DNA from: Micrococcales bacterium
GTDB lineage: Bacteria > Actinomycetota > Actinomycetes > S36-B12 > UBA5976
DNA length: 9,209 nucleotides
NCBI GenBank assembly: GCA_024640585.1
Contig: JAHEEQ010000064.1
Coordinates: 1 to 9,209, forward strand
Direction of reading: 5' to 3'
The notes under the pieces are model-generated. The model was given only the letters and a program-made list of their open reading frames with translations, was not told where the DNA came from and made no database searches. Each line of letters opens with the position of its first letter. Positions within the stretch are counted from its first letter, which is position 1. The position numbers and the translations under genes are program-made. This document shows, in pieces, positions 332-8,764 of this stretch.

Positions 332-468
332 TCAGCTCGTCAAATCATTTACAACTTTGCTATGGCTGAACGGATCCAATAACTTTTCTGTTTGATTGAC
401 AGATGTTGGATTTGACTGATTTTTCATTGGCACAGCAGTAGCACTACTACTTGGCATAGAAGTCGCCC
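332..468 (-). pseudogene. 3' fragment, paralogous to the gene at 8360-8764
   Basis: Aligned without gaps to 8360-8496 (constant offset 8028), this stretch differs at 19 of 137 positions by hand count (about 86% identity); bases 401-456 are identical to 8429-8484 (56 nt). Read on the minus strand it keeps the frame: ATSMPSSSATAVP, then MKNQSNPTSVNQTEKLLDP, and a stop at the same place as the intact gene's. Homology ends at about 468, and going further upstream the frame meets a stop at 479-481 with no start codon, so only about the last 45 codons survive. The rest of 297-564 holds no gene I can support; there is a loose inverted repeat CGTCTT/AAGACG between about 494 and 522. The fragment may be a decayed duplicate or the displaced 3' end left by an integration event. 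Confidence 0.85.
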
Positions 469-564
469 TCGCTATGTATTACAAAAAATTGCGACGTCTT
501 TACTTCACATTGACCGAAGACGCCTACATTTGAATTCACAACTAACTAAGCAGACAAGGATTTT

Positions 565-1101
565 ATGTCATTGCTGATTTCAAGTTCAAAAATTAAATTG
601 AGTCCAGTATTTTTTCTGCTGGTATTTTTTATTGCGGGCAATTCATTTGCACAAATGGGTGGCATGGGCGGCATGGGCGGAGGTTCAAGAGGTGGCGGGA
701 TGGGACATGGAAGAGGTTGGTCTGCGCTTCAAAAAGAGCAAGAAAGACCATTGCCCCCACAAATCAATTCCGATCAGATACTTCAAAAATTCAGTGAGCT
801 TCACAGCGAGTTGGAGCTCAATCCAAAGCAAGATGCATTGTGGATTCCGTTTGAAGATAATTTTCAGCGATACATTGAGTTTTTGATTAAGGAAAAAAAC
901 TCAATCCCGCAATTTGACGCAAGAATCAGTGGAAAAATATTTATTGGAAGATTTGTTGATTCGGCACGAAATAAATTTACTCTGCTGGAAAATTTTGAGA
1001 GTAGTTCAAATCAGCTAATTGGAGTTTTAACTAAAGAGCAACAATTGAGATTTGATTCAAAAATTCAAGGAATATTAGTCAAAGATTTAGGGCGAATTTA
1101 A
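565..1101 (+). CDS. Secreted Spy/CpxP-like (LTXXQ motif) protein with Met/Gly/His-rich N-terminus
   Basis: This is a 178-residue exported protein. A signal peptide spans about residues 1-29 (KIK, hydrophobic FFLLVFFIAG, cleavage at SFA|Q). After cleavage comes a low-complexity MGGMGGMGGG repeat and GMGHGRGW (residues 31-52), rich in Met, Gly and His, which could bind soft metals such as Cu(I). The remainder is helical and charged, with two LTXXQ-like motifs, LNPKQDALW (85-93) and LTKEQQLRFD (155-164), as in periplasmic Spy/CpxP chaperone or stress proteins. AGGA at 556-559 with a 5-nt gap supports the ATG at 565. It is followed by a palindrome pair and then the DUF2946 gene on the same strand. 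A role in the envelope metal or stress response is inferred; the family call is tentative because overall similarity beyond the motifs was not tested. Confidence 0.75.
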   Translation: MSLLISSSKIKLSPVFFLLVFFIAGNSFAQMGGMGGMGGGSRGGGMGHGRGWSALQKEQERPLPPQINSDQILQKFSELHSELELNPKQDALWIPFEDNFQRYIEFLIKEKNSIPQFDARISGKIFIGRFVDSARNKFTLLENFESSSNQLIGVLTKEQQLRFDSKIQGILVKDLGRI

Positions 1102-1174
1102 AGGATTTAACACCTTTTCTACAATTATGTGAGCCGCGTGGCGACCGTGCTAGTGGGTTTTTGTGGGCGGCAGG

Positions 1175-1191
1175 TGTCGTTTTACACGACA
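1175..1191. repeat. Palindrome TGTCGTTTTACACGACA (pair 1, left member)
   Basis: 17-nt near-perfect palindrome (7 of 8 pairs) centred at 1183. It belongs to the TGTC(G/C)TTT-N-AAA(C/G)GACA family seen five times in the window. Its partner is centred 35 bp to the right. It lies in the 185-bp gap between the Spy-like gene and the DUF2946 gene, where a regulator could bind. The extended upstream frame of the DUF2946 ORF crosses it but is unlikely to be coding. Confidence 0.7.
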
Positions 1192-1209
1192 GAGGCTGGT
1201 GTTTGATGT

Positions 1210-1226
1210 TGTCCTTTCAAAGGACA
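1210..1226. repeat. Palindrome TGTCCTTTCAAAGGACA (pair 1, right member)
   Basis: Perfect 8-bp arms around a central C (centre 1218), 61 bp upstream of the chosen DUF2946 start. It is almost identical to the palindromes at 6509-6525 and 8825-8841. It is symmetric with TGT/ACA ends and a 17-nt length, compatible with a dimeric Crp/Fnr-type operator. A repeated structural element is the alternative; no T-run follows, so it is not a typical terminator. Confidence 0.75.
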
Positions 1227-1286
1227 TACGGTTGCGTCTTGTGCAAATGTGTCATTATCAAATGTCAAATATGTAATAATTTGAGG

Positions 1287-1640
1287 ATGCAAACTCTTCG
1301 CAACACCAAATTCATAGCCCGCCTTGTGCTGGTTTGGTTTGCTTTGTTTCTGGGGTCTGCAATTGCATCCACCATTGTCAACCCAGGCAACCTGCAAATG
1401 GTTTGCTCTTCGGGTGGCATGATGAAACTGGTGGATTCCCACGATGACAATGACACTCATCGGGTTACCAATATGGATTGCCCATTGTGTGCATCTGTAA
1501 CGGCGCCGCCTCAACCGTTAACTGTCAACTTCGAAAAACTCTCCACCTTGGCGCACGCCCTGCACCCGATTGCAGCGGCTCACATTGCGTCTGTCACTGC
1601 GCCGCCACTGCCTTCGCGCGGACCACCTTCTACTCTCTAA
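1287..1640 (+). CDS. DUF2946 family protein, probable exported metal-related protein
   Basis: A 117-residue protein. The N-terminus (TLRNTKFIARLVLVWFALFLGSAIAS, here residues 3-28) is a signal peptide or membrane anchor. Downstream are Cys40 in a QMVCSSGG context, Met45-Met46, a His/Asp patch SHDDND (51-56), a CPLC motif (65-68) and a Pro-rich AAP-type C-terminus (TAPPLPSRGPP). This N-anchor, CS-G-(M)KL and CPLC order is the DUF2946 pattern, commonly found beside copper genes and TonB receptors in beta- and gammaproteobacteria (recalled). The ATG at 1287 is chosen because the family starts just before the R-rich signal segment; GAGG abuts it directly, which is too close for an ideal ribosome site. 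The frame is open up to 1161, but that part spans the palindromes and encodes nothing family-like. It stands upstream of the Crp/Fnr, receptor, PepSY and PCu(A)C genes. CPLC and the Met/His residues suggest metal binding, but function is unknown. Confidence 0.82.
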   Translation: MQTLRNTKFIARLVLVWFALFLGSAIASTIVNPGNLQMVCSSGGMMKLVDSHDDNDTHRVTNMDCPLCASVTAPPQPLTVNFEKLSTLAHALHPIAAAHIASVTAPPLPSRGPPSTL

Positions 1641-7513: not shown

Positions 7514-7520
7514 CAGTGCC

Positions 7521-7545
7521 TCGCTATTCTTTTATGGAATAGCGA
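7521..7545. promoter_or_regulatory. ModE box 1 (perfect inverted repeat)
   Basis: TCGCTATTC-N7-GAATAGCGA has perfect 9-bp arms and is very close to the E. coli ModE operator pattern (ATCGCTATATA-N6/7-TATATAGCGAT). It starts 8 bp upstream of the modA start codon and overlaps its ribosome site, so bound ModE-molybdate should block modA expression directly. Site recognition follows established ModE biology; binding here is inferred. Confidence 0.82.
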
Positions 7546-7554
7546 TGTTATCAC

Positions 7555-7577
7555 CGCTATCCCAATTTTGAATAACG
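7555..7577. promoter_or_regulatory. ModE box 2 (imperfect, in tandem with box 1)
   Basis: CGCTATCC-N7-GAATAACG keeps the same arm register and 7-nt spacer as box 1, with 6 of 8 arm pairs symmetric. Its centre (7566) is 33 bp from that of box 1 (7533), about three helical turns, so two ModE dimers would lie on the same DNA face. It ends 11 bp before the modE start, so modE is probably autoregulated. Confidence 0.6.
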
Positions 7578-7588
7578 AAAATTCACTA

Positions 7589-8356
7589 ATGCCTGAGAAA
7601 ACCTTAAAAATTGATTTGGCACAAGCGCTTGGCGATGTAAACATTGATAAGCGCATTGAGATATTGCGGCAAGTAGGACTCGTGGGATCCATTTCTGAAG
7701 CGGCTCGGGTAACTGGTGTGAGCTACAAGGCTGCTTGGCAAGCAATTGAAACACTAGGAAATTTGGCAGGCAAGCCAATGGTGGAAAAAGCGGTGGGAGG
7801 TAGCGGTGGCGGTGGTGCGCAACTTACACAAGAAGGTCAAAAAGTATTGGAAGGTGCGGAGTTGCTTAGTAGGGCAAAAACTGCTGTGTTTGCTGAATTA
7901 GAAAAAGGATTTAGCAACTTCTCGGCGTTAGGTTTTTCAAGTTTGAACTTGAGAACAAGTATGCGCAATCATTTACCGTGCCAAATTCAGCAAATGAAAA
8001 AAAATGGAGCCTTTACAAGAGTTGTAATGGAATTAGGCGAAGGACAATTGCTTGCTTCAAAAATCACCGAAGAGAGTGCGCAGTTGCTAGGACTTGTAGT
8101 TAATATGGACGTTTTAGCGTTGTGCAAAGCAACAGGCGTATCAATTACATCAACGAAAAGTAAGAAACAAGGCGTGAATGTTCTGAAGGGCAAAGTCACA
8201 AGAATTTCAAATGGTAAGCAAAGTGGAGAAGTTTCTATTAGGCTAAATTCAGGTTTCCAACTTGTGGGGTTCTCTACTCAATTGAGTTCTCATAAAGTGG
8301 GTGATGAAGCGTATGCATTGGTAGATGAAACGAGCGTGGTCATCGCTTTGACTTGA
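7589..8356 (+). CDS. modE: Molybdate-responsive regulator ModE
   Basis: 255 residues from ATG 7589, close to the 262 of E. coli ModE. The N-terminal winged helix-turn-helix (about 20-100) has the ModE pattern GSISEAARVTGVSYKAAWQAI (HTH, 33-53), then the glycine-rich GGSGGGGAQLT wing (70-80). Two TOBE/Mop molybdate-binding modules follow: 122-187 (LRTSMRNHLP, SQ-type LGLVVNMDVLALCKAT) and 194-255 (QGVNVLKGKVTRIS ... VVIAL). S124, R126, N127 and K180 match the oxyanion-contacting positions of the first module. With molybdate bound it represses molybdate uptake genes. No Shine-Dalgarno is evident before ATG 7589; the frame stays open up to 7505 but that part would overlap modA and the operators. 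It is divergent from modA across two ModE boxes and converges on the minus-strand gene ending 4 bp downstream. Confidence 0.93.
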   Translation: MPEKTLKIDLAQALGDVNIDKRIEILRQVGLVGSISEAARVTGVSYKAAWQAIETLGNLAGKPMVEKAVGGSGGGGAQLTQEGQKVLEGAELLSRAKTAVFAELEKGFSNFSALGFSSLNLRTSMRNHLPCQIQQMKKNGAFTRVVMELGEGQLLASKITEESAQLLGLVVNMDVLALCKATGVSITSTKSKKQGVNVLKGKVTRISNGKQSGEVSIRLNSGFQLVGFSTQLSSHKVGDEAYALVDETSVVIALT

Positions 8357-8359
8357 ATT

Positions 8360-8764
8360 TCACTTGGTCAAATCTATTACAGCGTTGCTTTGAATAAGCG
8401 GATCCAACATCTTTTGTGTTTGATTGATAGATGTTGGATTTGACTGATTTTTCATTGGCACAGCAGTAGCACTACTACTTGGCACAGAAGTCGTCTTGTC
8501 GTTGGATTTGAGCTTGTTAGCACGGACTTTTTCTTGCTCTATTTCCTGTGCTGAAGTTTTCTTAGCTTTACTTGGCTTGGGACTGACTATCTTGGGCTTG
8601 AATGGCTTAGCTACTTTAGGGGCAGCAGTAGTTGATTTGGCTCGTTGAGCATCAAGCTGTTTTTGCTCTTGTGCTTGTTTTGCGATTGCTTGCCAAACGC
8701 TATCAGTGATTAGCTTCCATAGTTCCATTTGTGACTGAGCATCAGCGAACTCAAATAATCTCAT
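8360..8764 (-). CDS. Unrecognised Lys/Ala/Pro-rich protein, possibly phage-derived
   Basis: 134 residues, no signal peptide or membrane segment. The N-terminal 40 residues (MRLFEFADAQSQMELWKLI, then DSVWQAIAKQAQEQKQLDAQ) form a probable amphipathic helix or coiled coil. Residues 45-95 are basic and Ala/Pro/Lys-rich (VAKPFKPKIVSPKPSKAKK) and likely disordered; the tail is Ser/Thr/Asn-rich. The MRLFEFA opening resembles short hypothetical proteins of T4-like environmental phages as I remember them, which is weak evidence of phage origin. A good GGAGG site lies 8 nt before the ATG, and an AT-rich stretch with TATAGATAAATAC lies just upstream. Its 3' end is duplicated at 332-468. It converges on modE with only 3 bp between the stops. 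Function unknown. Confidence 0.7.
   Translation of the reverse strand: MRLFEFADAQSQMELWKLITDSVWQAIAKQAQEQKQLDAQRAKSTTAAPKVAKPFKPKIVSPKPSKAKKTSAQEIEQEKVRANKLKSNDKTTSVPSSSATAVPMKNQSNPTSINQTQKMLDPLIQSNAVIDLTK

Follow-up and report, generated by a model that had tools for sequence, protein, structure and literature searches.

We analysed a 9,209-nucleotide (nt) stretch of DNA from a Micrococcales bacterium (contig JAHEEQ010000064.1, the window), in which two direct copies of the 3′ end of a 134-amino-acid (aa) gene enclose a block of copper and molybdate genes. Judged by its sequence relatives, this gene is a member of an uncharacterised gene family of tyrosine-integrase islands and not a host target gene. 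The present arrangement has an integration-type geometry, with one 3′ end of the gene at an intact modE and another family-like 3′ end 8 kb away beside a DUF2306 gene. We tentatively suggest that it arose through recombination in a core shared by two copies (or alleles) of the island gene, by plain homologous exchange, a reading that we rank first while granting it somewhat less than an even chance. The main units are as follows.

332..468, minus strand: copy A, the displaced 3′ end of the same gene, with its own stop in frame (core 401-456, other end 332-400)
8360..8496, minus strand: copy B, forming the intact gene's 3′ end (core at 8429-8484, remaining end at 8360-8428)
8360..8764, minus strand: the intact 134-aa gene of the MRLFEF family, with a GGAGG ribosome site and ATAAATA upstream and copy B as its 3′ end
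469..8359, no strand assigned: the block between the copies (178-aa open reading frame (ORF), DUF2946, Crp-type regulator, TonB receptor, PepSY_TM, PCuAC, 77-aa ORF, modA, modE)

A repeat search returned 331-480 against 8359-8508 (offset 8028, 84% identity over 150 nt) as the longest direct repeat of the window, which confirmed the repeat described in the first-pass annotation, with copies A and B in the same orientation at a constant offset of 8028. The copies differed at 16/69 positions in 332-400, 0/56 in 401-456, 3/12 in 457-468 and 5/12 in 469-480; homology on the gene's 5′ side of the core was thus lost within about 12 nt, as had been claimed. An exact 56-mer direct repeat is expected about 1.6e-26 times by chance in the window. 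Permutations that scattered the 16 differences evenly across 125 positions gave a difference-free stretch of at least 56 in 0.056% of cases, a figure that takes no account of core conservation among the family proteins (0.083 differences per site at the core residues 105-118 vs 0.31 at residues 81-104). Copy A translated in frame to MPSSSATAVPMKNQSNPTSVNQTEKLLDPFSHSKVVNDLTS followed by a stop, and frame and stop were those of the C-terminus of the 8764-8360 gene, again in line with the earlier description. Of the 17 codons that differed between the copies along the repeat, 16 were nonsynonymous and 1 synonymous; 3′ of the core the corresponding counts were 10 and 1. By eye, nearly every residue of both 3′ ends occurs in relatives, and the displaced end, DPFSHSKVVNDLTS, looks like a once-working gene end because it is built almost wholly of such residues.

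The 134-aa protein had 1099 database relatives at E 0.01 or better, the best 120 of which were examined as a list; among the matches listed, the closest were 92-93% identical. At the thresholds applied, the protein matched nothing in Pfam (above cut-off), PHROGs or NCBIfam, and a phage or plasmid home for the gene was not indicated by any match among viral contigs, plasmids or phages. Five distant relatives (genomes G344, G089, G440, G186 and G140) lay in tyrosine-integrase islands or remnants beside DUF6641, with a second small recombinase in four; the relative in island L018 was 32% identical to the window's protein. The order in L018 was tRNA-Met, integrase, gene, DUF6641, HUH-like protein and small tyrosine recombinase, with an 18-nt repeat after the tRNA and again at 18673. 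In L017, the gene near one end was followed by DUF6641, the HUH-like protein, the small recombinase and an integrase-like gene (only SAM-like domains in Pfam) beside tRNA-Pro, and the island was bounded by an exact 48-nt repeat of the tRNA-Pro end. L024 was of the L017 type (82-90% identical over five stretches of 313 to 2876 nt, tRNA-Pro end identical over 49 nt). L019 carried an integrase downstream of guaA (here and below, which we take this gene to be from its sequence), the gene, DUF6641, the small recombinase and, further on, ZorA to ZorD genes. The remnant L020 held a DUF6641 fragment, the gene and an integrase near the same guaA region as L019, after an IS5-like transposase (named by eye), and locus L009 held guaA, a relic of the gene and a DUF6641 piece that ended at the locus end. 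The HUH-like protein, so named from its motif, gave a model with a mean predicted local distance difference test (pLDDT) score of 61.8; its weak Foldseek matches included Rep nuclease domains of adeno-associated virus and parvovirus, and none reached E 0.001 or better. An RNA search of five island loci yielded only a tRNA at L014 373-446 above the gathering score, with its reverse-strand Plastid-ycf2 match below it.

Compared with the islands L017, L018, L019 and L024 and the remnant L020, the window likewise has an MRLFEF-type gene and an adjacent DUF6641 piece in the same orientation, whereas it lacks the integrase, the HUH-like gene and the second recombinase, and its DUF6641 is shortened. 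The flanking features of the window are as follows.

8859..8993, minus strand: C-terminal DUF6641 fragment of 45 aa that shares 49% identity with two DUF6641 proteins from islands and, alone, is under the Pfam threshold
8980..9207, plus strand: PDZ-domain coding sequence, matched from domain position 9 and running off the contig, with a frame open from 8905
7589..8356, plus strand: modE, intact to its natural C-terminus, with 3 nt between its stop and that of the 134-aa gene
3..296, plus strand: DUF2306 membrane protein gene, of which the contig start leaves the 3′ part; it faces copy A at about 35 nt

Because the DUF6641 fragment adjoins the 134-aa gene and meets the PDZ sequence (at about 8983-8993), the right edge of the window, intact gene and fragment together, looks like a decayed island remnant. 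The modE gene is complete: among 60 aligned relatives out of 119 listed, 7 stopped at the same residue, 52 one residue later and 1 three later. As a separate observation, modE is divergent (best relative 60% identical, vs 83% for relatives of the nearby PepSY protein). The target named in the first-pass annotation is hereby corrected: the repeat is part not of a host gene but of an uncharacterised gene family found in islands. The geometry of integration into a gene's 3′ end that it had described (intact 5′ part, identical core, displaced end) stood.

In the mechanism that we favour, one copy of the island gene would have lain beside DUF2306 (end type A) and the other beside modE (end type B). 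A crossover within the core, probably made by host homologous recombination, would have brought the two copies' 3′ ends together; the intact gene would have received the modE-side end, the other end would have been left 8 kb away, and the copper/molybdate block would have come to lie between them. The 5′ part of copy A may have been lost or may never have come along, and either end could be the older. A crossover or conversion in the core is suggested because two family-like ends have an identical core, here 56 nt adjoining a 3′ side that is 23% divergent. Similar remnants are also consistent with this reading, namely L009 (a relic by guaA with a DUF6641 piece) and L020 (a DUF6641 fragment, the gene and an integrase). 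We rank homologous exchange first because an integrase is missing, an empty site is lacking and linkage decays with distance in 105 relatives; in our judgement it is more likely than integrase action.

Several observations weigh against homologous exchange. In each of seven genomes searched, of which five contain islands or remnants and two contain relics, the gene occupied a single locus, so that two copies in one genome have not been seen elsewhere. On its 5′ side, copy A ends only some 12 nt past the identical core, which a homologous crossover would not need. The similarity of relatives left the relative age of ends A and B undecided: the nearest 10 and the nearest 20 matched A and B equally, although all 105 relatives together were slightly nearer to end A (15.3 vs 14.7 of 22 residues, p 0.0005). 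Because the family conserves the core, part of its identity between the copies reflects constraint. Neither an empty site nor a second strain was found, the relatives with genomic context not being close.

In favour of homologous exchange, the family recombines along its length. In 105 distinct family proteins of standard length, the rank correlation of pairwise distances was 0.18-0.39 between neighbouring segments and 0.06 between the N-terminus and the tail. Linkage weakened as distance grew, no special break being visible at the core, and the core and tail were the tightest pair (0.39). The 12 relatives sharing the window's core type had 8 different C-terminal ends, two of which are perhaps contig ends. 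Ends departing from the family motif occurred in 11/120 relatives, with 8/39 among NPT-type proteins vs 3/81 among the others (p 0.005), a split made after the data were seen and with P0005 and P0007 perhaps contig ends and the tail of P0059 motif-like.

These data also bear on a site-specific scar, in which an element with the copper/molybdate block and a replacement 3′ end would have integrated in the 3′ end of the 134-aa gene, by an integrase since lost or acting in trans, such as the islands' second small tyrosine recombinase. We regard this as unlikely. The identical core, replaced end, displaced end and one-sided loss of homology near the core edge are the geometry of target restoration, the excess of off-motif ends in the NPT-type relatives points the same way within the limits of that post hoc split, and L017, L018 and L019 each carry an integrase or integrase-like gene together with a second small tyrosine recombinase. 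However, linkage in the family shows no break at the core, where core and tail are in fact most tightly linked, and the family islands examined here insert at tRNA-Pro, at a site beside tRNA-Met or at the guaA end, not in their own gene. The block also contained no integrase among its ORFs scanned with Pfam and NCBIfam or by tblastn with four island integrases, as the first-pass annotation had remarked, and tblastn of the window with these four and three recombinases gave no match. The empty site expected in relatives was not found, the best database relatives being those at 92-93% identity among the matches listed. Nor did composition set the block apart from its left flank: the 330-nt left flank was ordinary for the block, and the right flank was mildly different, with 4% of 701-nt block pieces deviating from the block as far as it does.

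Searches of genomes brought up relics that bear on a further alternative. The only finds of a scan of genome contigs with two short peptide patterns were a pair of broken relics, which share one locus across two metagenome-assembled genomes of one genus (one titled Polaromonas). The 134-aa protein alone matched 7/399 family genomes at E 0.001, the weakest perhaps by chance, and the family profile matched 6/399 at 1e-5; in the genus of the relics, 4/87 genomes matched. A close and intact copy of the gene was absent from the genome matches in both sets (399 and 87 genomes). An empty-site search at the relic locus via a neighbouring gene matched 7/87 genomes; identity was 92-100% in the two relic genomes and 33-40% in the other five. 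Island copies could have landed separately, one downstream of DUF2306 and one downstream of modE, with the block being ordinary chromosome, the first copy reduced to about 137 nt and the identical core due to gene conversion between the copies. We consider this doubtful, on a par with the site-specific scar. Both window copies are convergent to a host gene end and the L009 and L002 relics likewise face a gene end, two genomes of a single genus retain relics of this gene at a shared locus, and locus L028 has the order DUF2946-like, TonB-like, PepSY (the first two named by eye) without a repeat. On the other hand, this reading needs two insertions as well as a conversion tract that ends close to the truncation, the seven genomes held one locus each, and neither of the other two PepSY loci read, L027 and L028, showed modE-modA next to copper genes.

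As a basis for comparing the block's synteny, PepSY matches were few in the family genomes (2/399 at 1e-100 and 1/275 at 1e-120) and only 44-56% identical. All the intervening genes in the same order without repeats, the arrangement that the first-pass annotation had set against its own proposal, were not found either in the two PepSY loci examined. A query from the plus strand beside copy A (462-530), where a candidate host-gene tail was read from 465-530, matched 0/250 genomes and no plasmid. As a side observation, an ORF at L027:4996-6228 has a ModE-like N-terminal region (by eye) and lies about 3 kb from the PepSY gene.

An assembly join, in which the metagenome assembler linked molecules sharing the 56-nt core and the true arrangement differs, seems rather improbable to us. 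The window appears to be the entire 9,209-nt contig, many of the listed relatives of the gene also sit on short contigs, and 56 nt is the edge length of a k=55 assembly graph. A join, however, cannot produce the truncated 5′ side of copy A, and the core next to 457 onward must exist on some molecule.

A broader proposal, which we think improbable, is that the MRLFEF island gene serves at its 3′ end as a cargo-capture site. Host metabolic blocks would enter there, each bringing a new 3′ end by which the gene stays open; the islands' second small tyrosine recombinase would act in trans, and freshwater island populations would thereby swap cargo at one anchor gene. The source bacterium is probably of freshwater origin, as Limnohabitans relatives suggest, and the window shows how its metal-nutrient genes can end up flanked by pieces of mobile DNA. 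Recombination between the two direct copies could also remove about 8 kb.

In Escherichia coli, prophage e14, inserted in icd, likewise swaps a protein-gene 3′ end for a homologous, diverged one; its integrase and empty site are known, whereas neither was found for the window. Three further systems are comparable. The Islander database, which covers tRNA and tmRNA genes, is built on islands with a restored target and a displaced fragment (PMC4383910), and the window has in common with them an intact gene with one end, a displaced fragment at the far edge and direct orientation, but its gene encodes a protein and itself comes from an island family, and the stretch between the copies yielded no integrase. 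The ssrA-specific islands of Dehalococcoides carry metabolic cargo by a conserved integration module (PMC3146451); the metabolic cargo is alike, while module and target are known only there. PAISt of Streptomyces lies at the bacA 3′ end with direct repeats, and its recombinase and sites may erode over time (PMC4057263); protein-gene 3′ end and direct repeats are alike, whereas the PAISt site is an 8-bp palindrome and its tyrosine recombinase was tested. A limited literature search returned no paper on DUF6641.

Further features were noted in the repeat itself.

8402..8439, no strand assigned: 11-bp inverted repeat around a 16-nt loop, perfect in copy B and, by eye, broken in copy A (374-411)

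An integron attC site was considered for this inverted repeat from known core motifs and set aside, since the site is 38 nt, copy A lacks the perfect form and no integron integrase is present. A diversity-generating retroelement was rejected, as changes occur at C, G and T and not at template adenines only, and the scanned ORFs include no reverse transcriptase. The window contains no tRNA that could serve as a target, and its single known-RNA match at E up to 1 was far under the gathering score.

Upstream of the gene, a TAAATA box was present in the window and in L017, L018, L019, L020 and L024. In these five divergent islands, the motif AGGCATAG was conserved at the gene end or just past the stop (about 12 to 27 nt past it in L017, L018 and L024, at the stop in L019 and in the last codons in L020), though looser matches also turned up elsewhere in the scans. 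Copy A has a near match, AGCCATAG, within the reading frame. DNA-level constraint on the core was considered from the L002 relic, where 1/10 vs 9/26 codons with an unchanged residue were synonymous, and was set aside as resting on too few codons for a claim.

The palindromes GTCGTTTTAMACGAC and GTCCTTTYRAAGGAC were paired at 1174-1226 (the copy at 1174 read by eye) and 6473-6525, flanking the DUF2946-Crp-TonB-PepSY-PCuAC genes, and one stood singly at 8826-8841 before the 134-aa gene; in 10 other loci only two palindromes of this form, unlike these, were found. In the islands, the tRNA-Pro island L017 contained a 22-nt imperfect palindrome five times (at 7379, 9801, 12301, 13297 and 17518), and the guaA island of the family (L019:16863-19532 and L025:99-5095) carried genes matching the Zorya type I models ZorA, ZorB, ZorC and ZorD.

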